This document shows positions 29,963-42,035 of a stretch of DNA of 50,917 nucleotides, piece by piece. The stretch is taken from contig JAHEYU010000043.1 of the NCBI GenBank assembly GCA_023251435.1, forward strand, positions 1 to 50,917. Reading direction: 5' to 3'. The stretch comes from Bacteroidota bacterium (GTDB lineage Bacteria; Bacteroidota; Bacteroidia; Bacteroidales; Prolixibacteraceae). Position 1 is the stretch's first letter, and every line of letters starts with the position of its first letter. A program made the position numbers and the translations under genes. The notes under the pieces were generated by a model. The model was not told where the DNA came from, did no database searches, and saw only the letters and a list, made by a program, of their open reading frames with translations.

Positions 29963-30742
29963 ATGAATTTTCGATTGCCCCATATCCCTGAACGCCCGGC
30001 AAAACCCCGCGAAAATGGATTAACAATGGTCATGGACAAAGGCCTAAGCTTGCGCGAAGCAGAAGATTTGTGCGACATATCGGCACCCTATTGCGACCTC
30101 ATGAAACTTGGTTTTGGAACTTCGATCATCACCAACCGCTTACACGAAAAAATCAGGCTTTACAAGTCAGCCGGCATGAAACCCTATTTCGGAGGAACTC
30201 TTTTTGAGGCATTTGCCGTTCGAAATATGATGGACGATTATCGCCGGTTTCTTGATGAATATGAAATGGAAACGGTAGAAGTATCAGATGGAGTGATGGA
30301 ATTAGACCATGATTTGAAATGCGAATACATTGCAGAACTTAGCAAAAACTATACAGTTTTGTCTGAAGTTGGGTCGAAGCTGAAAGGAAAAGAAATCTCG
30401 AACGAAAAATGGATAGAATACATGCAAACCGAACTTAATGCCGGAGCATGGAAAGTAATTGCCGAAGCCCGCGAAAGTGGCAATATGGGAATTTATAACG
30501 ACGATGGATCGGCTAATTTCAAACTGATTCTGGATATTAAAAAAGCACTTAATCCCGATACAATTCTTTGGGAGGCACCATTAAAAAATCAGCAGGTTTG
30601 GTTCATTAAACTTTTGGGACCAAATGTTAATCTTGGAAACATAGCAACCAATGAAATTATTTCGCTCGAAACCCTCCGGCTTGGGCTTCGCGGAGATACG
30701 CTACTTACCTTTTTACCCTGCATTCACAATTGGGATATATAA
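29963..30742 (+). CDS. comA: Phosphosulfolactate synthase (ComA) homologue
   Basis: This 259-residue TIM-barrel protein resembles ComA, which adds sulfite to phosphoenolpyruvate to make phosphosulfolactate, the first step of one coenzyme M pathway and a route to sulfolactate. Family blocks are visible: RENGLTMVMDKGLSLREAEDL, LMKLGFGTSIIT, GGTLFEAF, VEVSDGVMEL, LSEVGSK, VIAEARESGNMGIYNDDG, and WEAPLKNQQVWFIKLLGPNVNLGNIATNEIISLETLRLGLRGDT. No ComB, ComC or ComDE homologue is nearby, so the end product is unknown; sulfolactate or sulfonate metabolism is the natural guess. It follows the TPR gene by 7 nt and ends at a terminator. Confidence 0.9.
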   Translation: MNFRLPHIPERPAKPRENGLTMVMDKGLSLREAEDLCDISAPYCDLMKLGFGTSIITNRLHEKIRLYKSAGMKPYFGGTLFEAFAVRNMMDDYRRFLDEYEMETVEVSDGVMELDHDLKCEYIAELSKNYTVLSEVGSKLKGKEISNEKWIEYMQTELNAGAWKVIAEARESGNMGIYNDDGSANFKLILDIKKALNPDTILWEAPLKNQQVWFIKLLGPNVNLGNIATNEIISLETLRLGLRGDTLLTFLPCIHNWDI

Positions 30743-30743
30743 G

Positions 30744-30778
30744 AAAAGGTGGTCAGAAATGGCCACCTTCTCTTCTTT
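30744..30778 (+). terminator. Terminator after comA
   Basis: AAGGTGGTC and GGCCACCTT form a stem with a 6-nt loop (30746-30769, one G-U pair) followed by a pyrimidine-rich tract. It separates convergent genes and may act in both directions. Confidence 0.75.
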
Positions 30779-30826
30779 AAAAGTCAACAAAGCGTAAAGA
30801 AAATTAAATCAAAAAAAAAAAAAAAA

Positions 30827-31363
30827 TCAACCAGCTATTTCCAAATCCTTTTTGCATTTATGGCATAGTTGATGATTTTTTTGATCGATATCCTCAACGT
30901 AGGTGCTCGATCTCATTACACAAGTCGGATTTTGGCAATGAATCAATCCAAAAGTATGTCCGAGTTCATGAATAATTTCTTTGCGGATACGATCGATAAA
31001 TAGTCGTTCATCTTTTTTGATACCATATCGCTCGTTACTAAGCCGGTAAATTGATGCAATACCGCAACGTCCGTTTAAAAATGCCTGTCCGAAAATATAG
31101 GTTAAAATAGGAATAAAGAGGTCAATATTAAATATTCCAAGCGTTTTGCAGTCGTCGGAAGCATCTTCAGAATCAATTTTTTGCAATATCCTGTTACCGT
31201 CATATTGCCTTCTGGCAGGATCGTAAAATACACTTAAATCCAGATGTCCTTCCTGTGTTTTTACCGGGAGTGAAAATTCACGTTCAATATCATTAACAAC
31301 CATTTCAAGAAGTTCTTTCTCGAAATAGCCATAATAAATCAACGTGATATTGTCAAGGTTCAT
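30827..31363 (-). CDS. Archaemetzincin family zinc metalloprotease
   Basis: This 178-residue protein has the archaemetzincin signature. HELGHTFGLIHC supplies the zinc ligands His132, His136 and His142 with catalytic Glu133. Cys143, Cys148, Met150 (Met-turn region) and the pair Cys167/Cys170 follow, the four cysteines that bind a second zinc in the family. There is no signal peptide, so it should be cytoplasmic. Substrates of bacterial members are unknown. It lies 37 nt downstream of a sigma-54 regulator gene on the same strand with no visible terminator, so it is probably the last gene of the haem-kinase/regulator unit. Its stop codon is immediately followed by a run of 16 T on the coding strand. 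Confidence 0.9.
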   Translation of the reverse strand: MNLDNITLIYYGYFEKELLEMVVNDIEREFSLPVKTQEGHLDLSVFYDPARRQYDGNRILQKIDSEDASDDCKTLGIFNIDLFIPILTYIFGQAFLNGRCGIASIYRLSNERYGIKKDERLFIDRIRKEIIHELGHTFGLIHCQNPTCVMRSSTYVEDIDQKNHQLCHKCKKDLEIAG

Positions 31364-31400
31364 TCACATGCGGTTTTATTGGATTCAGAATGAATCAGGA

Positions 31401-32741
31401 TTATTTTGACGGCTTCAGGTCGTATTTCTTTATCTTGTTGTAGAGCGTTACCCGGTCAACTTTCAGTGCTTTGGCCGAAACAGAAATGTTCCAGTTGTAT
31501 TTGGTGAGAATCTGAAAAATGTGGTTTTTCTCTAAATCATCAAGACTTTCGAAAGTAGTGTTTACAATGGCTTTCCCCAACGGAAGGTCTTTCAGGCTGA
31601 TTCTTTTCCCATTTCCAACAACAATTGCCCGTTCAATCATATTTTCAAGTTCACGGATATTTCCGGGAAAAGGGAATTCTTCAAGACGTTTCAACGCACT
31701 TGAATCGATTGTTATGAGCGGTCTGTTCATCGAAGTGCAGTACTTTTTTATGAAATAATCAACCAGCAGAGGAATGTCTTCAATGCGCTCGCGCAATGGC
31801 GGAACGCTGATGTTCACAACATTTAGCCTGTAAAAAAGATCCTCGCGGAAAAGTCCCTTTTCAACCATGCTTTTCAAATCTCTGTTCGTAGCACAAATAA
31901 CCCTGAAATCGGATGTGATTTCCTTGTTGCCACCTACGCGGACAAAACTCTTGCTTTCGAGTACACGTAGCAATTCAACTTGCATTTTCTGGGAAATGGT
32001 TGCAATTTCATCCAGGAAAATTGTTCCGCTGTCGGCCATTTCAAACCGGCCTTTCCGATTGTAAACTGCACCGGTAAAAGCACCTTTTTCGTGTCCGAAC
32101 AACTCACTCTCCAATAAACTTTCGCTCAATGCACCGCAGTGAACGCTTATCATCGGAAAGAATTTTCGGGGTGAGTTAGCGTGTATTGCTCTGGCAACAA
32201 GTTCTTTACCTGTGCCGCTTTCTCCGGTAATTATTACTGAAGCATTCGATTGGGCAACGCTTTCAATTTCGCGGAGTACTTTCTGTATTGTTTCGCTGTT
32301 GCCAATCAGGTCTTCAACATTTTCAAGCGAAACCACCTTTTCTTTTAGTATTTCATTTTCTTCGAGCAGCGAAATTTGTTTCGAGGCATTTCTTATCAGG
32401 TGCGAAAGGTCGTCTGGATCAAAGGGTTTTGTAACATAGTCGAAAGCGCCGTCTTTCAATGCCTGAACAGCCGTATCGACAGTTGCAAAGGCTGTCATGA
32501 TAATCACAATCGAATCTTTTCTTAACGATTTAATCCGCTTGAGCATTTCCAATCCATCCATTCCGGGCATTTTAATATCGGCCAGAATAATATCAAAAAC
32601 ATCAGATTCGAGCATCGACAGGGCTTTCTTTGCATCCTGGGCACATTCAACACGGTAACCATCTTCAATAAACCAGTTGTACAACGAATCTCTTACCGAT
32701 TCTTCATCATCAACAATTAATATGGAAATTTTTTTTGCCAT
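31401..32741 (-). CDS. Sigma-54-dependent response regulator of the haem-kinase pair
   Basis: This 446-residue NtrC-type activator has a receiver domain (VDDEE at 10-14, Asp55 in ILADIKMPGMDG, Lys in VTKPF). The AAA+ domain carries Walker A GESGTGKE and a canonical GAFTGA loop in FGHEKGAFTGAVYN. A C-terminal Fis-type helix-turn-helix follows (WNISVSAKALKVDRVTLYNKIKKYDL). It starts 12 nt after the stop of the kinase with c-type haem motifs, which is its evident partner. Its likely target is the sigma-54-like promoter at 39329-39344 that precedes the H-like/ferredoxin/NrfD genes. This link is inferred from proximity and promoter type. Confidence 0.94.
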   Translation of the reverse strand: MAKKISILIVDDEESVRDSLYNWFIEDGYRVECAQDAKKALSMLESDVFDIILADIKMPGMDGLEMLKRIKSLRKDSIVIIMTAFATVDTAVQALKDGAFDYVTKPFDPDDLSHLIRNASKQISLLEENEILKEKVVSLENVEDLIGNSETIQKVLREIESVAQSNASVIITGESGTGKELVARAIHANSPRKFFPMISVHCGALSESLLESELFGHEKGAFTGAVYNRKGRFEMADSGTIFLDEIATISQKMQVELLRVLESKSFVRVGGNKEITSDFRVICATNRDLKSMVEKGLFREDLFYRLNVVNISVPPLRERIEDIPLLVDYFIKKYCTSMNRPLITIDSSALKRLEEFPFPGNIRELENMIERAIVVGNGKRISLKDLPLGKAIVNTTFESLDDLEKNHIFQILTKYNWNISVSAKALKVDRVTLYNKIKKYDLKPSK

Positions 32742-32753
32742 GATCTGTTTTCC

Positions 32754-34427
32754 TTATGTCAGTAATAAAGGTAAAGTTATTGATATTGTTGTTTCTTTTC
32801 CGCGTATCGATTTTACCTCAGTCTTTCCTTTGTGACTTTGAACGATACCGTGAACAATTGCCAGCCCCAAGCCAATACCGCTTGCATTTTGTTTGGTAGA
32901 AAAGAACGGTTCAAAAACGTGGGGAAGGTCTTCTTCCGAAATGCCAACACCATTGTCTGTTATTTCAATCCGAATATGTTGATCGTCCGGATTCAGTGTT
33001 CTGAATAGTATTTCCCCGTTTTCAGAAACAGCTTCGGAAGCATTAACAAGTATGGCAACACAAACTTGCTTGATCTGATTTGGACTACAGGAAATCAGGT
33101 CTGTTTTTGCATTAAAATCGGATAAGAAGTTAATGTTTGCCACTTTCATCGGATGCGACATCAAATCAAAGGTTTCCAACAGAATCTCGTGAAGATGTTT
33201 CGGCTCAAAATTATTCTGATCTTTTTTCGAGAAGTCAAGTAAGCCTTTCACAATGTCGCCACAGCGTTTGGTTTCATTTTCAATCAGTTTCAGATGTTTT
33301 AGCATCGATTCCTTTTTTACCGGATCAAATTCCTGATTGTTTAACTGCTTGTAAATAAGTTTTGTATAAATCAGAATTCCTGAAAGCGGATTGTTGATCT
33401 CGTGAGCAACCGACAACGATAATTTTCCCAGCGAGGCGATTCTTTCAATGTTGATCAGTTCGTTTTGAGCCTGCCCCAGTTCTTCCGACTTCTTCTGGAC
33501 TTTATATTCGAGCTGTTGCGACCAGTTCTGAAGTTCATTGGTTGCAGTATGCAGGTTGTCGAGCATTTCGTTAAAAGCGATCGAAACCATTCGCATATCC
33601 GAAAGTTGGTGAGGCTTAATTGTCAATCGGGTAGTTTTGTCACCTTTTGCAACTGCTTCGCTGGCTATAATTATTTCATTCAGAGGTTTTTTAATTTTTT
33701 TATTTGTGAAGATGATTAAGAATATCAGCAATAAAAGAGTCATTAAGGCAGCCAGCAAGGTATAATCAGTCGTCGATTTTTGCAACGCATCATCCAGACC
33801 TTTCAAGGGCATTTTAATAATAAGCGAGCCGAGAACTTCGTCGTTTGGACTGTGAGCGTGGCACGAACTTGTATAACAGGTTTTTTCGTTTAAAATGGGT
33901 GATTTAATTAGCAGGTGCCTGTTTTGGCTGTTGTTATAGGGATTCATAATGCATTCACTGTCAGCATCAATAATTCTGTACGATTTCTCTTTTCGCGAAA
34001 ACATGGTATCAAAATTCTGGTGGCAGCTTTTACAGTCTGGATCGGCGTGTTTGATTGTGTCGTTTGAAATGGAAGTGTAAGCAAGGTTGTTATTACTATC
34101 GTACATGTTTACATCGTCGATTCCCGACATGGTATTAATTATGTCGAGCGTGCCTTGAAGTGAAGTCCGGTCGTTTTCGAGCATCGACCGGTAAAGCGCT
34201 CCTTCAACCAGATATCCGATATTATTTCCATTTTCGCTGATCACCGATTTCATGTATTCTTCGTTTACCGACCGGAAAATGACACCGAATGAAACAAATA
34301 AAAAGAACGATGAAATGGTAATGATAAATACAACTCTTCCATAAATTGAAGACCGGAATTTAACATACCCATTAAGTATTGGGGTTCCAACACCGTTTTT
34401 TGTAGCTATTTTTTTGAACCAACTCAT
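32754..34427 (-). CDS. Membrane histidine kinase with c-type haem motifs in its sensor domain
   Basis: This 557-residue kinase has two membrane helices (about 33-51 and 222-241) bracketing a periplasmic sensor of about 170 residues. The sensor contains a canonical haem c motif, CKSCH at 132-136, and a second, wider motif C-x4-C-H (CYTSSCHAH, Cys184, Cys189, His190). A HAMP-like segment ([10 protein letters not shown]), a coiled coil, the phosphoacceptor His342 in [12 protein letters not shown] and a complete ATPase domain ([18 protein letters not shown]) follow. It probably senses redox state or a gas ligand through periplasmic haem. A strong terminator lies upstream, so the kinase, regulator and archaemetzincin form their own unit next to the ferredoxin/NrfD genes. 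Confidence 0.93.
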
Positions 34428-34551
34428 GGCTTAATAATTATAACATAAACTGTTTGCTAATTTAGTTTCAATTTTTCAAAACAGCTTTATGTATTCAATT
34501 TTGTTTTCATTTAGAAGCCGAAAAACATAATTTGACAGCTAAAAGTTTCAA

Positions 34552-34590
34552 GAAAAAACTAAAGCGACGTGATTGGGCACATCGCTTTAG
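34552..34590 (-). terminator. Strong terminator ending the H-like/ferredoxin/NrfD unit
   Basis: A 9-bp stem (CTAAAGCGA at 34559-34567, TCGCTTTAG at 34582-34590), extended inside by GTG/CAC, is followed on the minus strand by TTTTTT. It lies 32 nt past the stop of the small H-like gene and before the haem-kinase gene. Confidence 0.88.
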
Positions 34591-34622
34591 ATATTGGTGA
34601 AAATTCTTCAATTCGGATGAAA

Positions 34623-35378
34623 TTATTTCTGATCGCGAAAACAGTTTTTATTTCTGCAAAGAACTTTTTTACTCAGAAAATCCTTCTGAAAATCCTGCCA
34701 TACTTCGTTTGGTAGTCCCGAAAGTGGTTGATCGACCAATTCACCACCATCCTGCAAAACAACATTCGAAGGCATTGGAGAGTATTTTCCAACAGACTGT
34801 GCCAGAAAATCCTTAAATCTTTCCAATTCCTGTGTTGCCCAGATTGTGGCATCGTCGGCCAGATAATACGAGTTCGTATCAGGAACCCAACTTATTGGCT
34901 TTACCTTGTACATCCAACCTTTTGCGTACGGATCTTCGTTCAGTAATTCAGGACTGCTTGTAAGCATTGCGTTTGCCTCCATAATTTCTCCTGAAATAGG
35001 CGAGAAGATTTTCAGCAGTTTGCCATTCTGTTTAATTTCGGCCAGCAGTTCTCCTTTTTTTACCTTTTCGCCTGATTTTTTCAGATTGTTAAATTGAACC
35101 TCTCCTGTAAGATGTACCAATAAGTCGTCGAGGCCCACTTTTGCAATTCCCGATTTTTCGAGATGTGTCCAGGTGTGATACCTGCTGAAGAACAATCCTT
35201 GAGGAACGTTCAATGTGTTGGCAGTTAGAATTCCAAACGACTTTTGAGCATTTTTTTTGCTTTTTACTTGTCGGTTCAAGAATATCCAGAAAGGAATAAG
35301 GAATAAGAAGAAAATAATTGTTACCAAATATTCTATTCCTTTCGTTTCAAAAATGTTGTTGTATTTAAATCCGTCCAT
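34623..35378 (-). CDS. Membrane-anchored glycine-cleavage H-protein-like protein
   Basis: This 251-residue protein has one N-terminal membrane helix (about 17-34) and an H-protein-like (lipoyl/biotinyl hammerhead) domain at about 60-163. FSRYHTWTHLEKSGIAKVGLDD and SPISGEIMEANAMLTSSPELLNEDPYAKGWMYKVK align closely with GcvH. In an ungapped alignment the lipoyl-lysine position is Gly119, with a lysine one residue later (Lys120); the GcvH-type E-S-V-K context is lost. A C-terminal tail (about 182-235, VVLQDGGEL and EVWQDFQ) is shared with the larger protein at 37556 and not with GcvH. The last residues add two cysteines (CRNKNC). A role in glycine cleavage is unlikely. It is the last gene of the ferredoxin/NrfD unit. 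Confidence 0.88.
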   Translation of the reverse strand: MDGFKYNNIFETKGIEYLVTIIFFLFLIPFWIFLNRQVKSKKNAQKSFGILTANTLNVPQGLFFSRYHTWTHLEKSGIAKVGLDDLLVHLTGEVQFNNLKKSGEKVKKGELLAEIKQNGKLLKIFSPISGEIMEANAMLTSSPELLNEDPYAKGWMYKVKPISWVPDTNSYYLADDATIWATQELERFKDFLAQSVGKYSPMPSNVVLQDGGELVDQPLSGLPNEVWQDFQKDFLSKKVLCRNKNCFRDQK

Positions 35379-35421
35379 AATTATATTTTTATGCCATCAC
35401 TTTTTTATAAGTGACAGTTGG

Positions 35422-36654
35422 TTAATGATTATCGTCTTTTGCCCAGGATGGTGATTCCCTCAATACAGGCATTCTATTGATTACCCACCTGAAAATCCAG
35501 ATTTCAGTAAAAATAACTGCCAATGTAACTACTATTTCCATCCATGAAGGAATATAGGGAATAGCGGCATCCCATCTGAATCCAATGATTGAAACATTCA
35601 GCCTGTTCAGTACAACACCTATCATTGTTAAGATAGCTGCCAGTTTTATTGTAAAAATGTTGGCCGTGCGATAGCTGTAGAAGAACAACGCCATAGGTAT
35701 TAGCACAAACCCAATCATTTCAACTAAAAACCAGTATCCCATGGGAGTGTTTATCAAGGTCCAGTTTTGTTCGTGAAGAAATACCAGCAATTGCAGGAAA
35801 AAATAAGCAAACATTGTAACGGCGCAAATTTTTGATAATCCGTGGATGATCCCGTTATGGGCTTTTTTGTTTTTTTCGCTGATTTGATCGAAAAATACCT
35901 TGTGACTGATTGAGCCCTCAAAAATTACCATTGAAAGTCCGGCAAAGATGCTGGATACTAAAAACAGTATCGGAATAAATTCGGAGTACCATAAAGGATG
36001 TATTTTTTCTTTTGCCATCAGGAAAAGCGCGCCCAGGCCTGATTGGTGCAATGTTGACAAGGTGATACCGAATATTACAGCGCCAATGGTCATCCCTGCA
36101 AGTATTTTACGGGCTCTTTTCAATCCGAGCCATTCTGCAATAGCAGGTGAGAATTCGAATAATTCGGCAAGCATATAAAGCAAAAAGTGCCATGCGACCA
36201 GAAACATCACCGAACTCGTGCCATAGTTGTTTCCAATAATTGGGTTTACTACATTCCAGGGACGCCCCAGGTCAATCAGTAATGCACCAGTGTAAAAGGC
36301 ATAAGCCAGAAAACCATTCAGTACAGTAACCCTGACGATGGAATGATATTGTTTCATATTCAGGATATAAACCATAAATGTTACCACATAAGCACCTCCG
36401 GCAAAGGCCACGCCGGTAACCACATCGAACCCTATCCACAATCCCCAGGGAACTTCCTGTGTGAGATTGGTAACAGCACCAATACCTTTCCAGAACCTTA
36501 ACACGATTAGCCCAAATCCCAAAAGTATGATGGGGATGGATATAATATTGAATGGTGTGAGCCATTTTCCTCTGGGTTTTAATTCATTGAATAAAAATTG
36601 CCAGCTGAATGTAGGGATGTGTTCCTTAGCAGTTATAATTCTCGTTTTATTCAT
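35422..36654 (-). CDS. NrfD/HybB-like quinone-interacting membrane subunit
   Basis: This 410-residue integral membrane protein has about ten helices of the NrfD/PsrC/HybB family: WGLWIGFDVVTGVAFAGGAYVVTF, LIDLGRPWNVVNPI, SVMFLVAWHFLLYMLAELFEF, LSTLHQSGLGALFLM and the C-terminal NRLNVSIIGF. The family exchanges electrons between menaquinone and a peripheral ferredoxin subunit, sometimes moving protons. The start is placed at MNKTRIITAKEH, which overlaps the ferredoxin gene by 8 nt (ATGAATAA). An upstream in-frame ATG would add 29 residues and a longer overlap. The tight coupling to the ferredoxin gene supports a two-subunit module. Confidence 0.93.
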   Translation of the reverse strand: MNKTRIITAKEHIPTFSWQFLFNELKPRGKWLTPFNIISIPIILLGFGLIVLRFWKGIGAVTNLTQEVPWGLWIGFDVVTGVAFAGGAYVVTFMVYILNMKQYHSIVRVTVLNGFLAYAFYTGALLIDLGRPWNVVNPIIGNNYGTSSVMFLVAWHFLLYMLAELFEFSPAIAEWLGLKRARKILAGMTIGAVIFGITLSTLHQSGLGALFLMAKEKIHPLWYSEFIPILFLVSSIFAGLSMVIFEGSISHKVFFDQISEKNKKAHNGIIHGLSKICAVTMFAYFFLQLLVFLHEQNWTLINTPMGYWFLVEMIGFVLIPMALFFYSYRTANIFTIKLAAILTMIGVVLNRLNVSIIGFRWDAAIPYIPSWMEIVVTLAVIFTEIWIFRWVINRMPVLRESPSWAKDDNH

Positions 36655-37510
36655 TTTCTTCTTCTTTTGATTGGTTTTTTTTGGTGGCTGAATAGATTCC
36701 GAGTAAAAGTGCAGGTAAAAGTACATCGACGGAAGCAACACTGTAAAGAAATCCCTTTGTCAGTGCCGGATAGGATGAATTTTGAAGTTTCGTGTTGAAG
36801 CCTATTTCATTAAAAGGGGCAGGCGAGAGATACAAAAAAGCGGTTCCTCCAGCAACTGTTTCGCCGAAGACCTGATCTACATATCCCTCCGGATTTTCAG
36901 CAATTCTTTTCCTTGCTTCGGTCAGTAATTCGCGCCGCGTTCCAAAAATTAATGCTTCGGCCGGGCAGGCTTCTGCACAAGTGGGAATCTGTCCTTTCAT
37001 AATGCGGTCATAACACATGTCGCATTTTTCAATCTTCGGATTAGCGCTGAAATATTCAAATTTTGGTACATCAAACGGGCACGAAACCATGCAATATCTG
37101 CAACCCATGCATTTATTGCCTCTCCAGATAACCGGCCCTTCTTTTGTTTTGTACATGGCTTGCGTAAGGCAGGCTGCTGCGCAGGCAGGTTCGTTGCAAT
37201 GCATGCACTGGTTTCTTACCAAAACTTCGCCCTTCGAGGTGGTGTGATAATTGATTGCACATCGTTTCACTTCGCTCGTTTTGCGCAATACATCAACTTT
37301 TAATTCATCGGTTGGCTCTGGTTGATTATGTGCTTTTGCGCAAGCTATTTCACATTCCAGGCAACCTGCGCAGCGAGTCGCATCGAAAAGCATTCCCCTA
37401 AATTCTGTTTTGCTGCTTTCAGTCGAAGTAGCTCCAGCGCTTTTACCTACGGCGAGGGTAACCCCTGCAATTCCGATAGTTTTAAAAAAGTTTCGTCGAT
37501 CGATACTCAT
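36647..37510 (-). CDS. Tat-exported four-cluster ferredoxin, HybA-like
   Basis: This 287-residue protein begins with a twin-arginine signal (DRRNFFKTIGIAGVTLAVG). It contains sixteen cysteines in four groups suited to four 4Fe-4S clusters: CAGCLECEIAC, CMHCNEPACAAAC, CMGCRYCMVSC, and CDMC with CAEAC. A C-terminal membrane helix (about 255-275, VASVDVLLPALLLGIYSA) is typical of HybA. It should pass electrons on the periplasmic side between the NrfD-like protein and an unknown partner. It lies 45 nt after the H-like/PstS-like fusion gene and overlaps the nrfD-like gene by 8 nt. No molybdoenzyme, hydrogenase or multihaem cytochrome gene is linked. Confidence 0.94.
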   Translation of the reverse strand: MSIDRRNFFKTIGIAGVTLAVGKSAGATSTESSKTEFRGMLFDATRCAGCLECEIACAKAHNQPEPTDELKVDVLRKTSEVKRCAINYHTTSKGEVLVRNQCMHCNEPACAAACLTQAMYKTKEGPVIWRGNKCMGCRYCMVSCPFDVPKFEYFSANPKIEKCDMCYDRIMKGQIPTCAEACPAEALIFGTRRELLTEARKRIAENPEGYVDQVFGETVAGGTAFLYLSPAPFNEIGFNTKLQNSSYPALTKGFLYSVASVDVLLPALLLGIYSATKKNQSKEEENE

Positions 37511-37555
37511 AATAAAAGGTATTTTTAGGTTAGATATTTAGATTCACAGAATCAG

Positions 37556-39271
37556 TTATTTTGAAGTGTCAATGAATTTTGTCTGAAAATCTTCCCAAAC
37601 TTCAGGACCAAAATCTGCCAGAATATTGTCGGTAAGTTCGCCGCCATCCTGAAGTACGATATGAGCGTAAACCGCTTGACTTGATCTCATTGAAGTTGCG
37701 AAAAAATCTTTAAGCCGGGTAAATTCATCTTGCAGCCACTCCTTATAGTTTTCGCCCATAAAGAGGAACTGAATTTCTCGTAACCAATTTTTAGGCTCAA
37801 CCGTGTACACCCAACCATCTGCAAACGGAGAAGAATTTATAATTGATGAATCTGAATTTAGCTGATGGTTTTGTTCCCTGATGGTACCCGAAATCGGAGA
37901 ATAAATATTCAATTGTTTCCCGTCTTTAATAATTGTCAGTATTTTTTCTCCTTTTCTTACCATTTCACCGGGATCTTTCATTTTAATACGTGAAATCGTT
38001 CCTGTAATGTGTTGAAGAAAATCATCAATGCCGATCTTAACCATTCCGTCTTTTTCCATAAAAGCCCAGGTATGTGTTTTATCGAAATAAAGTCCTTTTG
38101 GCGCAATGATAGAATTTTCGTCAAATGCCGGGGTAAAACTGATATCCTCGCCAAGTAACGACGACCTGTTTTTCCTGATATAACCAATTGCTGCTGCAAA
38201 TACCAGGGCGATAACACCCAAAACGATCAGAATATATGCCCATGTCCTCGATTCAGTTGGCTTTTCAATAACTTTTGTTAATTCGGTGCTTGCAAATGTT
38301 TCAAGGTTCGAACTTATTTCACTGCTTGCAAGAATACTGTACCCATTTTTGTTTAGAAATTTTTGCCCGTCGGCCATTACCCATGTTAAAAAGGCAATTG
38401 TGTTGTTATCTGTTGGTTTTGAAGGTGCAACAGCATAAATTCCTCCGCATAGCTCACGCGGATATTTTCCTATCCAGACTGCACGGGTAAAAGTATTCAG
38501 ATTGGTATAGATATTTTCGAAGTTGTCAATCCTTCCATTCCTGTTTTTATCAATTGGCAACAGCTTAATATTTGCAATTATTTCGTTGGTTGCAGCATCG
38601 CGAACATCGGTAAGCTTGCAAAAACCAATGGCATAAATATCCTTTTGTATGGCCGAAATAAGGTCGGCAGGATTTGCCACAGAAGTTCCATTTATTGCAG
38701 TTATATCTGATTTACTGAAATTAACGAGGTTCGATTTTATTGACTCATTGTTAATGATATAGTAGTTTATTGATGTATTATTGCCGACATCAATCAAACT
38801 GCTCCAGCTTGTTTTGCCCGAATTGGCAAGAAGCTGAGCAAAATCTTCTATGGTCAATCCCTGCCGGTTGATTTCATTTAGCATCGGATTTTTTGCATTT
38901 ATGACAGGAACAATTGCATCGCGGCCAATTACCATTTTCCAGGCTGTTTCATCATTAACAGTTCCCGAATTTGATTCTGAAGTGAAAATGATATTATTGA
39001 CTTCAGTGAATTGATTATCAGCAATATTGCCAATACTTATTTTAACTGAAGGGTTTAATCTTTCATATTCAGTTGCCAAATTAGTTGCAAGGCTGTTTAA
39101 TTTTTGCGAACTCATAATTTTTAAGGTTGTTTCAGAGGAAGAATTCGGTTGATTTCCTGCTTGGTTGTCAATGTTTGTATTGCAAAATCCGGTGATGCAA
39201 TAAAACAATAGTAGCAACCCAATAATTAAGGCTGATAGATTTTTCATGATATTGAATTTAAAGTTGTTCAT
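37556..39271 (-). CDS. PstS-like domain fused through a membrane helix to an H-protein-like domain
   Basis: This is a 571-residue fusion. An export signal (hydrophobic 12-30; Met9 at 39247 is an equally good start) is followed by a periplasmic-binding-protein-like domain (about 48-330; LKIMSSQKLNSLATNLATEYERLNP, AFLTWVMADGQKFLNKNGYSIL). It contains a textbook EF-hand loop, DKNRNGRIDNFE at 241-252. A membrane helix (about 344-365) leads to an H-protein-like domain (about 392-495; FDKTHTWAFMEKDGM, SPISGTIREQN, SPFADGWVYTV). The lipoyl position is Gly451, with Lys452 next to it. The tail (535-566, HIVLQDGGEL, PEVWEDFQ) matches the small H-like protein. It is the first gene of the ferredoxin/NrfD unit, behind a sigma-54-like promoter. 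Function is unknown. Confidence 0.85.
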   Translation of the reverse strand: MNNFKFNIMKNLSALIIGLLLLFYCITGFCNTNIDNQAGNQPNSSSETTLKIMSSQKLNSLATNLATEYERLNPSVKISIGNIADNQFTEVNNIIFTSESNSGTVNDETAWKMVIGRDAIVPVINAKNPMLNEINRQGLTIEDFAQLLANSGKTSWSSLIDVGNNTSINYYIINNESIKSNLVNFSKSDITAINGTSVANPADLISAIQKDIYAIGFCKLTDVRDAATNEIIANIKLLPIDKNRNGRIDNFENIYTNLNTFTRAVWIGKYPRELCGGIYAVAPSKPTDNNTIAFLTWVMADGQKFLNKNGYSILASSEISSNLETFASTELTKVIEKPTESRTWAYILIVLGVIALVFAAAIGYIRKNRSSLLGEDISFTPAFDENSIIAPKGLYFDKTHTWAFMEKDGMVKIGIDDFLQHITGTISRIKMKDPGEMVRKGEKILTIIKDGKQLNIYSPISGTIREQNHQLNSDSSIINSSPFADGWVYTVEPKNWLREIQFLFMGENYKEWLQDEFTRLKDFFATSMRSSQAVYAHIVLQDGGELTDNILADFGPEVWEDFQTKFIDTSK

Positions 39272-39328
39272 GTATTAAATTTCTTAAAGGTTCTTTTTTG
39301 AGAAATATCTGCAATGCCAAAACCTATA

Positions 39329-39344
39329 TTCAATTACAATGCCA
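39329..39344 (-). promoter_or_regulatory. Candidate sigma-54 (-24/-12) promoter
   Basis: On the minus strand this reads TGGCATTGTAATTGAA. Against TGGCAC-N5-TTGCW it keeps TGGCA at -24 and TTG at -12 with exact spacing, and lacks only the C of the -12 GC. Transcription would start near 39318, about 47-70 nt before the possible start codons of the PstS/H-like fusion gene. Two sigma-54 activators are encoded in the window, one of them in the adjacent unit. Confidence 0.55.
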
Positions 39345-39475
39345 AACGATTTTTTTTGAATACAAGTAATTGATAATAAGTGTTATACGTGATTTTATGC
39401 TGAAATTATTATACAGGTAAGTGTTGAATAAATAAACAGTAATTTGTGTTATATTTTGGATATACCAATAAATCA

Positions 39476-39493
39476 ACAACTTAGAATAGTTGT
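39476..39493 (-). promoter_or_regulatory. Palindrome, possible upstream activator site
   Basis: ACAACT and AGTTGT form 6-bp inverted arms around a 6-bp spacer, about 130-165 nt upstream of the -24 element. Position and shape fit an NtrC-type activator dimer site, but only one copy is seen and chance occurrence in AT-rich DNA is possible. Confidence 0.35.
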
Positions 39494-39573
39494 ATATTTA
39501 TTAATCACTGTTGAATAATGCAATATTAGCTATGTTTATTGCCAGATATTCAGCGTGTTATGATTTGGGTAAT

Positions 39574-40218
39574 TTATTTCAGAATGCTGTTTATTAATAC
39601 AGAATGAGCCGATGGGCCCTCGTTGAAAAGAAGATCAAGAATGCTTAAATCTGGGGTAAATCCGAATTTTTCGGAGAAAACCTGAGTGTAAGGCTGAGCT
39701 ACAAACTGTGGATCATCAGCGTTACGATGCGCTTTAGGACTGATTGTTTCCCTGAAATTAATACAACCTTCCGGAGTTTTTTGAAACTCATCAGTAAGCT
39801 TTATTTCCACCGGAATCTCCAGGATTTCGAGCAGGGTTTCTGTTATTTTCAGATTATAGTCAAAAAGAAAAGTCGCTTTTTTGTAAAAAAAAGGTTTTAT
39901 GTCGTCGGCGTAATATTCGAAAAAAGGCGAGGAGTTATACCCAGAGAAGATGGTGCGCCATTGGTTTCGTTGCCATTCTTCGTCATACGAAATACGAAGA
40001 TCTTTAATTTTTATTTTCTGTTCCCTGCCTTTTTCAACCGGGACAATCAGTGAAACCGGACCATTTGCCCCCAAAATGACGGTTCTGTTCCTGTAAGTTT
40101 GTTTGATAAAATGCTCATGCTGCTCAATGTAAATATCCGAAAAAGCAGCAAGTTTGCTGAAATACTTTATTGGGGCGAAATAGGCGGTGCTAAGCAGAAT
40201 TGGGGTATCCGTAGTCAT
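39574..40218 (-). CDS. WbqC family protein
   Basis: This 214-residue protein matches the WbqC family: STAYFAPIKYFSKLAAFSDIYIEQHEHFIKQTYRNRT, GPVSLIVPVEKGREQKIKIKDLRIS, WQRNQWRTIFSGYNSSPFFEYYAD and a C-terminal LSILDLLFNEGP. Members occur in polysaccharide gene clusters and elsewhere, and are proposed to be linked to surface sugar synthesis; the reaction is not established. No signal peptide is present. It overlaps the lapA-like gene by 4 nt (ATGA), so translation is coupled. In many Bacteroidota wbqC follows lepB and dapB, as here. Confidence 0.9.
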   Translation of the reverse strand: MTTDTPILLSTAYFAPIKYFSKLAAFSDIYIEQHEHFIKQTYRNRTVILGANGPVSLIVPVEKGREQKIKIKDLRISYDEEWQRNQWRTIFSGYNSSPFFEYYADDIKPFFYKKATFLFDYNLKITETLLEILEIPVEIKLTDEFQKTPEGCINFRETISPKAHRNADDPQFVAQPYTQVFSEKFGFTPDLSILDLLFNEGPSAHSVLINSILK

Positions 40219-40550
40219 TCTTTTTCGTTGAAAAAACCTCCCTGATAGTCGCTTCCCATGCTAATTCCTTCCGAAGTTATTTCTTCGTCAAGGTCGGCAT
40301 CAATCCTTTTGGGGTTTTCGAGTTCGCGTATTACATTTTTCAATTCTCTTTTTAGCCTCATAATTTTAGGAAGCTGCATCATTAAAGCCAGCAAAAAGCC
40401 AAAAATTAATCCAGCAATTAAAACCAGTACCACCGGAACTTCAGTCATTTTCCAGTGGAAAAATTTGATATCGATCAAAAGTTGGTTCTGAACAGTGAAA
40501 ATGATCAGCAGTACCGAAAGAATAAAAAAAGCAACTACTTTTCCTGACAT
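40215..40550 (-). CDS. LapA domain (DUF1049) membrane protein
   Basis: This 111-residue protein has two membrane helices (about 4-21 and 38-58) separated by a short periplasmic loop (VQNQLLIDIKFFHWKMTEVP). The order FTVQNQ, then VPVVLVLIAGLIFGFLLALMMQLP, then a basic coiled coil (RLKRELKNVIRELENPKR) is the LapA/DUF1049 pattern. Family members in E. coli help coordinate lipopolysaccharide assembly; the role in Bacteroidota is not known. The acidic C-terminus is variable. It is first in a two-gene unit with wbqC and has a well-formed promoter. Confidence 0.88.
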   Translation of the reverse strand: MSGKVVAFFILSVLLIIFTVQNQLLIDIKFFHWKMTEVPVVLVLIAGLIFGFLLALMMQLPKIMRLKRELKNVIRELENPKRIDADLDEEITSEGISMGSDYQGGFFNEKE

Positions 40551-40569
40551 GACCGAGAGTTTAATGGGT

Positions 40570-40601
40570 CAAAAGTAACCAAAAGCCTGTAGAAGAGCAA
40601 A
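40570..40601 (-). promoter_or_regulatory. Bacteroidota sigma-A-type promoter for lapA-wbqC
   Basis: On the minus strand TTTG (40598-40601), a 20-nt spacer and TACTTTTG (40570-40577) form a full -33/-7 pair. Transcription would start near 40563, about 13 nt before the ATG at 40550. Confidence 0.72.
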
Positions 40602-40643
40602 TGGATATCTTGATGGATGAATCGGGGGTATTTCATAAAATAC

Positions 40644-40674
40644 GAAGAGGATAACTTTTGGGGTCATCCTCTTC
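40644..40674 (-). terminator. Terminator downstream of lepB
   Basis: GAAGAGGATAAC and GTCATCCTCTTC form a 12-nt stem with one mismatch and a 7-nt loop. It lies 21 nt past the lepB stop; the following T tract is weak (TATTTTAT). Confidence 0.65.
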
Positions 40675-40694
40675 TTATTATTGAGTTTTATTCA

Positions 40695-42035
40695 TTAATG
40701 AACAAACGAAAACAATCGGCTCCAGCGAATTTTGTTGTAGAACGGCTGATCTTTGTCCATCGATAACCAGATAAATACTGCTTTCCCAACGATGTGATCT
40801 TCAGGAACAAAACCCCAGTAGCGAGAGTCAGCCGAGTTGTGACGGTTATCTCCCATCAACCAGTAATAGTCCATTTTGAATGTATAGCTTTCGGCAACCG
40901 CACCATTGATGTAAATAGTGCTGTCTTTCACATTCAGGTCGTTGGCTTCGTATAAATCAATGATTCGCTCATATAAGGGAAGGTTGTCCATGTTCAGCTT
41001 CACTGTTTGTCCTTTTTTCGGAATTTCAAGCGGTCCAAAATTGTCAACATTCCACTGATATTTGCTGCTGAAGGGGAAAATGTTTCTATCCCAATTAGCA
41101 GCAGCAACCAAAGTTCGCTGAATAGATGTGACGTTTTTCATTGCCTTCATTTTATCCTCGTTTTCCTTGGTTAAAGGGAAGAAATACTGCGAATTAGAAA
41201 CCATGTGACGGTCGTCTTCAGCTATTTTCATTTGCTCAAGCGTACGTTTGTTGATGCCGGTTCCATCAGTAGTAACAATATTGTCGTACTGCATTCCGGC
41301 GAAATGTTGCTGCTCTTTTCCGTTTACGAAAAGCTGGCCGTTCTTGTATTCCAAAACATCTCCCGGAATACCCACACAGCGTTTAATGTAGTTTTCGCGT
41401 TTGTCAACCGGACGTGCAATTATATCGCCGAAGGTTTCTTTTTCCTGCCATACGCGTTCGCGTCCGTAACTGCGAATCAACTGGTAATAGCTTTGGTTCT
41501 GAACATTTACCGCAACAGTATCACCTTCAGGAAAGTTGAACACCACTACGTCGTTGTTCTTTACATCTCCAAAACCGGCAATACGTTTGTATGGATTTTT
41601 GATCCACTCGACATACGATTTTTTTGTTTTTGAAAGTGGCATTGTGTGATGCACGAATGGAAATGAAAGCGGTGTATTTGGAAGTTTTGGACCGTAGGAG
41701 GTTTTGCTAACAAACAGATAATCACCTATGAGCATCGATTTTTCCATCGAGGAGGTTGGGATCGTGTATGCTTCGATAAAAAACATGCGGATAAAGGTGG
41801 CAGCAATTACTGCAAAAATAATTGCATCAACCCATTCAACTACTCTGGTTTGTTTGCCATCGGGGGCATTTTTCTTTTTCCAGAACGACCAGTGCACCTT
41901 TTTTGTGATGTACATGTCGAAGATTACTGCAAGGCCAATTAACCACCAGAAATTTTGGATCCAGAGTACCCACAACAAATAAATAAGGCCGGTTACTGCA
42001 AATTTGAACCATTTATTTGATAATATTTCTTTCAT
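40695..42035 (-). CDS. lepB: Signal peptidase I
   Basis: Signal peptidase I removes signal peptides from exported proteins at the periplasmic face. This 446-residue version has N-terminal membrane helices (about 13-45 and 69-86). The catalytic Ser96 lies in IPTSSMEKSM, the general-base Lys218 in YIKRCVGIPGD, and the C-terminal box is YYWLMGDNRHNSADSRYWGFVPEDHIVGKA. A long insertion of about 130 residues between the Lys box and the C-terminal box is usual for Bacteroidota LepB. It follows dapB by 14 nt, a conserved arrangement. Confidence 0.96.
   Translation of the reverse strand: MKEILSNKWFKFAVTGLIYLLWVLWIQNFWWLIGLAVIFDMYITKKVHWSFWKKKNAPDGKQTRVVEWVDAIIFAVIAATFIRMFFIEAYTIPTSSMEKSMLIGDYLFVSKTSYGPKLPNTPLSFPFVHHTMPLSKTKKSYVEWIKNPYKRIAGFGDVKNNDVVVFNFPEGDTVAVNVQNQSYYQLIRSYGRERVWQEKETFGDIIARPVDKRENYIKRCVGIPGDVLEYKNGQLFVNGKEQQHFAGMQYDNIVTTDGTGINKRTLEQMKIAEDDRHMVSNSQYFFPLTKENEDKMKAMKNVTSIQRTLVAAANWDRNIFPFSSKYQWNVDNFGPLEIPKKGQTVKLNMDNLPLYERIIDLYEANDLNVKDSTIYINGAVAESYTFKMDYYWLMGDNRHNSADSRYWGFVPEDHIVGKAVFIWLSMDKDQPFYNKIRWSRLFSFVH

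Follow-up and report, generated by a model that had tools for sequence, protein, structure and literature searches.

What does a ferredoxin/NrfD membrane pair do when it is encoded with no catalytic enzyme and is flanked by two proteins that resemble the H-protein of glycine cleavage (GcvH)? A locus of this kind lies in a 50,917-nucleotide stretch of DNA from a Bacteroidota bacterium of the Prolixibacteraceae (contig JAHEYU010000043.1), the whole of which is called the window here. The original prediction, made from the sequence alone, described four tightly ordered minus-strand genes encoding a PstS-like/H-like fusion (PstS~H), a Tat-exported ferredoxin, an NrfD/HybB-like membrane protein, and a second membrane-anchored H-like protein (H2), which ended in a terminator. 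All four open reading frames (ORFs) lie where that prediction placed them. However, they are only the first part of a larger unit that continues past the terminator, since genes for a sensor histidine kinase, a sigma-54-dependent response regulator, and an archaemetzincin-family zinc protease (AMZ) follow on the same strand, and these genes, along with a sigma-54-type promoter, had been overlooked (Table 1). Our preferred reading, to which we give a probability of roughly one half, is that the locus forms one regulated unit: a sigma-54-induced, menaquinone-linked redox module resembling HmcBC, whose H-like domains act as phosphorelay-linked adaptors.

Table 1. Features of the unit, listed from the upstream side of the minus strand (positions in the window).
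Feature	Position	Strand	Remarks
Distal activator-like site	39509..39525	-	consensus TGTTGAATAATTCAACA; 2 mismatches read on +, 3 on -
Proximal activator-like site	39422..39438	-	87 bp from distal site; 2 mismatches on +, 3 on -
Sigma-54-type -24/-12 promoter	39329..39345	-	TTGGCA-N6-TTGAA; 5' of PstS~H
PstS~H	37556..39271	-	signal peptide, periplasmic PstS-like domain, transmembrane segment, cytoplasmic H-like domain and tail (predicted)
PstS-like domain of PstS~H	38297..39136	-	
H-like domain of PstS~H	37727..38101	-	Gly at the lipoyl-lysine position
Multi-[4Fe-4S] ferredoxin, HmcB/HybA-like	36647..37510	-	predicted Tat export; C-terminal transmembrane segment
NrfD/HmcC/HybB-like membrane subunit	35422..36654	-	ORF open to 36741; likely ATG at 36654
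H2	34623..35378	-	N-terminal transmembrane segment, then predicted cytoplasmic H-like domain with shared tail
Terminator-like site within unit	34559..34590	-	13-pair stem
Sensor histidine kinase	32754..34427	-	predicted periplasmic sensor; CxxCH and CxxxxCH motifs
Sigma-54-dependent response regulator	31401..32741	-	receiver, AAA+ with GAFTGA, Fis-type helix-turn-helix
Archaemetzincin-family zinc protease (AMZ)	30827..31363	-	catalytic motif intact

Gene order in related genomes

We scanned genome contigs and analysed the best 80 loci among 292 relatives. The titles of the listed relatives name Bacteroidota wherever a group is stated, and isolates of Sunxiuqinia and Tangfeifania are among them. 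The full order PstS~H, ferredoxin, NrfD, H2, kinase(s), regulator, AMZ was intact in 51 of the 80 loci (48 with a single kinase gene and 3 with two), rearranged in one, and without its later genes in 23, 19 of which end less than 1 kb from the end of the locus. A separate set of 20 loci from relatives, which shares genomes with the 80-locus set, showed the same order from PstS~H to AMZ in most cases. The recurrence of this order across genomes argues that it is not due to chance. AMZ (PF07998) was present in 27 of 61 related genomes, the window's own included; with the module scored by reading the matches and kinship ignored, it occurred in 27 of the 29 genomes that hold the module or a fragment of it and in none of the 32 that do not. 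The two module genomes without AMZ are 70% complete (G053) and 10% contaminated in 1070 contigs (G007), respectively.

Several further observations concern the surroundings of the unit. Tandem kinase genes were seen in L032, L074, L105, and L114, with L032 also holding two archaemetzincin-like genes. In three loci (L035:41-6276, L036:12797-18614, and L041:12108-18389), the module adjoins a set that, by eye, encodes a long protein, a small ferredoxin, and NrfD- and YeeE/YedE-like proteins; the long protein, which has a Tat-type start in L035, is possibly a molybdoenzyme, and the set hints at a link to sulfur respiration. No relative was found in viral contigs. In plasmids, the 20 rows among the matches listed were all GcvH, and a further plasmid search gave no place covering 80% of the query among the matches listed. 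No Rfam family matched at its gathering threshold within 30000-41000.

The module was also sought across the phylum by sampling 395 genomes with a profile of the H-domain and its tail. Genomes of the window's class, other than the window's own, gave only GcvH-level matches in this search (six, at 1e-20 to 1e-22). From other classes we analysed 40 loci, spread over 39 genomes and picked mostly by score; further genomes with matches above ~88 bits (G064, G065, G074, G079, G122, G130, G142, G153, G184, G236, G323, G382, and G393) were left out of this set. Ferredoxin and NrfD genes were present in 39 of these 40 loci, which were seeded on the H-domain (L166 is the exception), and as a rule they adjoin the H-gene, so the co-occurrence that the original prediction had proposed as a check extends across classes of the phylum.

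Two layouts account for most of the other-class loci. In the first (18 NrfD rows), an H-gene is followed by ferredoxin, NrfD, often a degenerate H-gene, kinase, regulator, and AMZ. In the second (16 rows), ferredoxin and NrfD are followed by a 13-haem or 5-haem cytochrome, a kinase, and proteins in which a receiver, in one case preceded by a transmembrane segment, is joined to an H-domain (receiver~H). Of 10 other-class proteins given to Pfam, 4 proved to combine a receiver and a GCV_H domain on a single chain, and the acidic pair and phospho-acceptor motif are kept in 26 of 33 receiver~H chains, as judged by a simple pattern. An NrfD tree, in which the root is arbitrary and HybB forms a very long branch, contained three deep groups, each with H-like genes and haem-motif kinases. 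The group of the window's NrfD combines 12 Bacteroidales rows with two other-class rows that have AMZ and two that have receiver~H; therefore, the regulatory attachment appears to change while the redox pair stays. Two side observations concern these loci: the receiver~H variant adjoins large cytochrome clusters (up to 19 haems) in L171, L254, L257, L259, L262, L264, and L266, resembling extracellular electron transfer conduits, and the gene 3' of NrfD in L157-L175 encodes degenerate H-proteins that, by eye, have a CIW..AG..YKLC-like start and two cysteines 13 residues apart.

Kinase, promoter and terminator

Both haem motifs of the kinase sensor, CxxCH and CxxxxCH, were present in all 100 kinases compared (64/64 from the scan and 36/36 from other classes), and the periplasmic sensor probably binds two c-type haems. 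A structural model of the sensor (pLDDT 72) gave Foldseek matches led by WalK sensors; 3b42, the Geobacter sensor GSU0935, appeared at ranks 5 and 7 and 3b47 at rank 32, and this likeness was weak (TM-score to target 0.46-0.49). The sensor domains of GSU0935 and GSU0582 bind haem c; the window's sensor differs from them in that it sits in a histidine kinase and has two motifs, one of them CxxxxCH. The regulator contains a receiver, an AAA+ domain with GAFTGA (58/58 regulators), and HTH_8 by Pfam. AtoSC and ZraSR were among the best NCBIfam scores for the kinase and regulator, below their cut-offs, and the window pair differs from these systems by its haem motifs and the attached AMZ. The AMZ protein scored 164 bits with the NCBIfam archmetzin model (cut-off 145), and the zinc motif HExxHxxGx3Cx4CxM is present in the window protein, in 55 of 57 from the scan, and in 18 of 18 from other classes. 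No paper combining an archaemetzincin with NrfD or with a histidine kinase was found in the open-access literature searched.

The promoter pattern TGGCA-N6-TTG-N-[AT], picked post hoc after viewing the window's own upstream region, precedes the PstS~H gene in 59 of 75 related loci compared with 1 of 213 control ORFs, while bare TGGCA was found in 71 of 75 loci and 71 of 213 control ORFs. The half-sites TTCAAC/GTTGAA recur in relatives near -83, -92, -171, and -180 from the -24 box (no shuffled control accompanies this count), and a half-site combined with the promoter pattern occurred in 56 of 61 relatives among the matches listed, above the reversed-pattern control in most. A sigma-54-like match, counted with no control, lay near a module gene in 5 of 20 other-class loci.

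Within the window's own genome, the half-site and promoter pattern gave 9 matches compared with 1 for the reversed control; since 8 of these fall inside ORFs of at least 100 amino acids and the window's match alone is intergenic, the operon itself appears to be the main target, within the patterns used. The activator site with 3 mismatches gave 82 matches compared with 23 for the reversed control, and the promoter check covered those in 26 loci out of these 82 matches. A relaxed sigma-54-like match lay downstream in 5 of the 26 loci: two are the window's own sites, those in L213 and L221 lie inside an ORF, and the one in L220, which is intergenic and 5' of a lon-like gene, was judged to be a chance match, its activator site falling inside a small ORF. 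The strict -24/-12 pattern had five matches in this genome, namely the window, the lon-like gene, two inside ORFs, and one in an intergenic stretch after which no ORF comes on that strand.

The original prediction was right about the terminator, for which a 13-pair stem is present (34590-34559), but this stem lies inside the conserved unit and does not end it. Terminator-like hairpins were found in 29 of 55 gaps between H2 and the kinase gene compared with 8 of 240 random stretches. In 12 of these 55 gaps, the stem GCG(A/G)TGTG...CACATCGC is conserved in sequence, and it was found nowhere else in the 80 loci on the strand searched.

The constant pairing with a haem-motif kinase could also mean that the ferredoxin and NrfD proteins provide the quinone-pool or redox input of that kinase rather than forming a respiratory complex, with the H-domains relaying the state of NrfD to the kinase or regulator and the whole operon making up a signalling complex. 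We regard this as the main competing explanation, albeit an unlikely one. The receiver~H fusions and the lack of a catalytic subunit agree with it, and a system without a second intergenic target promoter in its own genome by the patterns used, bar the lon-like candidate judged to be chance and the one with no following gene, could mainly report on itself. Likewise, the persistence of PstS~H with kinase, regulator, and AMZ in loci where NrfD is gone favours a signalling role for PstS~H. However, the placement of the terminator would make ferredoxin and NrfD the better-expressed part of the unit where present, and the neighbours of the pair in sister lineages, namely cytochromes with 13 or 5 haems and large cytochrome clusters, are those expected of an electron-transfer complex; moreover, some loci hold ferredoxin and NrfD genes with no kinase nearby.

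The redox pair and the H-like domains

The best NCBIfam model for the ferredoxin was HmcB (300 bits, cut-off 420), followed by HybA, and that for the NrfD-like subunit, whose likely start overlaps the ferredoxin stop, was HmcC (403 bits, cut-off 550), followed by HybB; the NrfD family PF03916 scored 58 bits against a cut-off of 25.8. RRxF is kept in 70 of 71 related ferredoxins and at least 15 cysteines in all 71, which points to a Tat-exported protein with multiple [4Fe-4S] clusters. We used residues D58, D109, and S129 of the HybB quinone site as a reference, as given in PMC8076601. In an alignment of 81 NrfD rows (60 of them from the scan, 20 from other classes, and the window's own), S129 is kept in all 81, D109 in 80, the other row having Glu, and D58 in 66, the remaining 15 having Asn. 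The pair is thus predicted to be a quinone-type module, in agreement with the original prediction. No catalytic oxidoreductase was seen among the proteins of the window unit (ORF list, Pfam, and NCBIfam scans), as had been claimed, and no multihaem cytochrome was found in the unit (ORF list and Pfam). Two more NrfD-family genes lie elsewhere in the same genome (G000:C46 and G000:C13) and are not matched by the module NrfD at E 1e-20.

The window's genome also encodes a tetrahaem cytochrome that is 33-41% identical to module-associated ones of other classes. Relatives of this cytochrome adjoin the module in L157, L163, and L170; in L171 and L174 they belong to cytochrome clusters close by. Judging from these relationships, the periplasmic electron partner of the pair may be a small, separately encoded tetrahaem cytochrome. 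The tetrahaem gene, which is c554-like (G000:C42, L276), adjoins genes for a six-haem protein and for a protein that resembles a cytochrome c biogenesis factor by eye.

The Hmc complex of Desulfovibrio, which has its own Rrf1/Rrf2 regulators, shares the ferredoxin and NrfD-type membrane pair with the unit, as reflected in the top model scores, and a 13-haem cytochrome is added to the module in some sister lineages. The locus could accordingly encode a quinone:cytochrome oxidoreductase of the ordinary Hmc-like kind that has regulators of its own and whose cytochrome is unlinked, the H-like proteins being no more than assembly scaffolds. The HmcB and HmcC matches and the unlinked tetrahaem cytochrome, with its module-associated relatives, favour this possibility, which we nevertheless hold to be distinctly unlikely: both scores fall below the Hmc cut-offs, no other Hmc subunit was seen, and the window unit has H-like proteins, a haem-motif kinase, and AMZ instead. 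Moreover, it leaves unexplained both the loci with PstS~H, kinase, and AMZ but no NrfD and the receiver~H fusions. The likeness to HybA/HybB of Escherichia coli hydrogenase 2 lies in the second-best models and the conserved quinone-site residues, but the window unit lacks hydrogenase subunits, and HybB forms a very long branch in the NrfD tree.

The H-like domains share with GcvH their fold and a Pfam GCV_H match above the cut-off of 22 bits (85 bits in both PstS~H and H2), in line with the H-protein likeness that the original prediction gave both proteins, and they differ from GcvH in having no lipoyl lysine, a membrane anchor, and an extra tail, and in being fused within the module to PstS-like or receiver domains. 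They also fall below the cut-offs of the NCBIfam GcvH models, GcvH_rel_desulf among them. None of 144 H-domains from the scan has Lys at the lipoyl position, which is occupied by Gly in 139, by Asp and Asn in 2 each, and is a gap in the last one; a lysine lies one residue past it in 133. In an AlphaFold2 model of PstS~H (mean pLDDT 74), the H-domain (pLDDT 63 to 89 by blocks of ten) reached a TM-score, normalised to the target, of ~0.83-0.86 for most of the H-proteins listed and 0.85 for 3a8i. The flank that follows the transmembrane segment is more positively charged than the one preceding it in 60 of 74 PstS~H proteins and 60 of 61 H2 proteins, and because of this positive downstream flank, the H-domains of both proteins are predicted to be cytoplasmic.

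The N-terminal part of PstS~H has the PstS fold in the same model (TM-score to target ~0.5-0.7), in line with the PstS likeness originally proposed, although its Pfam score of 22 bits lies below the cut-off of 27. The phosphate-binding motifs of PstS, SGT and GS(S/T)T, were rare: of 72 PstS-like domains, 5 have SGT and 3 have a GS(S/T)T-like motif, while 59 have an EF-hand-like loop. PstS~H therefore shares its fold with PstS phosphate-binding proteins and differs from them in mostly lacking the SGT motif and in being joined via a transmembrane segment to an H-domain. Since every aligned sequence has methionine at residue 9, the protein perhaps starts at 39247.

The usual catalytic partner of NrfD/ferredoxin families docks on the exported ferredoxin. 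In the original prediction, the complex is menaquinone-linked and the H-like domains either take the place of this partner or bind some unknown cofactor. Taken as a whole, this reading is very unlikely, even though the operon offers no other partner: the domains are predicted to lie in the cytoplasm, on the opposite side of the membrane to the ferredoxin, they occur elsewhere as fusions to receivers, and they mostly have Gly in place of the lipoyl lysine. Some cofactor might still bind, as a lysine mostly follows the lost lipoyl position.

Proposed mechanism and its implications

We propose that the membrane histidine kinase, with its sensor probably carrying two c-type haems, answers a periplasmic redox or ligand cue and would then phosphorylate the neighbouring sigma-54 activator, turning on the promoter 5' of PstS~H, while the terminator after H2 would leave the kinase, regulator, and AMZ genes less strongly expressed. 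Seated on NrfD, the exported ferredoxin would connect menaquinol, through electron exchange, with a periplasmic carrier encoded elsewhere, possibly the small tetrahaem cytochrome. The two H-like proteins would sit, anchored in the membrane and free of lipoate, on the cytoplasmic side of NrfD as adaptors tying the module to the phosphorelay, much as the same kind of H domain appears fused to a receiver, its phospho-acceptor motif mostly intact, in sister lineages. We infer this adaptor role from the missing lipoyl lysine of the H-domains and from their predicted position on the cytoplasmic side, with the kinase and receivers. PstS~H would contribute a periplasmic phosphate-binding fold whose usual phosphate motif is mostly lost, and AMZ would be a dedicated partner, probably cutting a component to reset the system.

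Several results weigh against this proposal. On the promoter side, the pattern was chosen after the fact, 16 of 75 loci lack even the looser sigma-54-type pattern, and the canonical pattern (TGGYAYRN4TTGC[ATC]), tried and rejected, was found 5' of PstS~H in 0 of 75 loci compared with 2 of 610 control ORFs. Terminator-like hairpins are missing from 26 of 55 gaps between H2 and kinase and from 5 of 5 between PstS~H and kinase. Furthermore, five of the 80 scan loci, as well as L026, L027, and L030 of the 20 relatives' loci, hold PstS~H, kinase, regulator, and AMZ only, without ferredoxin, NrfD, and H2; for two of the latter three relatives such an NrfD is absent elsewhere in the genome, and it is present in the third. 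Because such loci exist, PstS~H seems able to function without the redox module. Conversely, the redox module of L086, L090, and L106 is followed by ~7 kb beyond H2 that encode no kinase, L082 has a kinase followed by 5 kb without a regulator, and neither AMZ nor receiver~H lies nearby in 7 of 41 other-class NrfD rows. Lastly, a lysine aligns at the lipoyl position in 2 of 36 other-class H rows.

In keeping with the original prediction, which had not recognised the system as a described one, no description of a unit combining NrfD with the glycine cleavage H-protein, PstS, and a response regulator was found in the parts of the open-access literature covered. The main text of PMC8076601 mentions neither GcvH, glycine cleavage, a histidine kinase, nor a regulator, and PMC12727194, in the part available, is a neighbourhood-method paper that mentions NrfD and response regulators and has no bearing on the question.

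More broadly, lipoate-less H-like domains might serve generally as adaptors between respiratory modules of the NrfD/ferredoxin type and haem-sensing phosphorelays, such that phosphorylation of a receiver would directly control a quinone-linked membrane complex and a dedicated archaemetzincin would serve as the off-switch. This would be a so far undescribed category of respiratory control, and we put it forward tentatively, as a possible but doubtful generalisation. The locus provides a genetic context for three puzzles, namely lipoate-less bacterial H-proteins, enzyme-less NrfD/ferredoxin pairs, and the role of bacterial archaemetzincins. The unit looks like an undescribed, self-regulating respiratory control system, and if the adaptor role holds true, respiratory complexes can be wired directly to phosphorelays.

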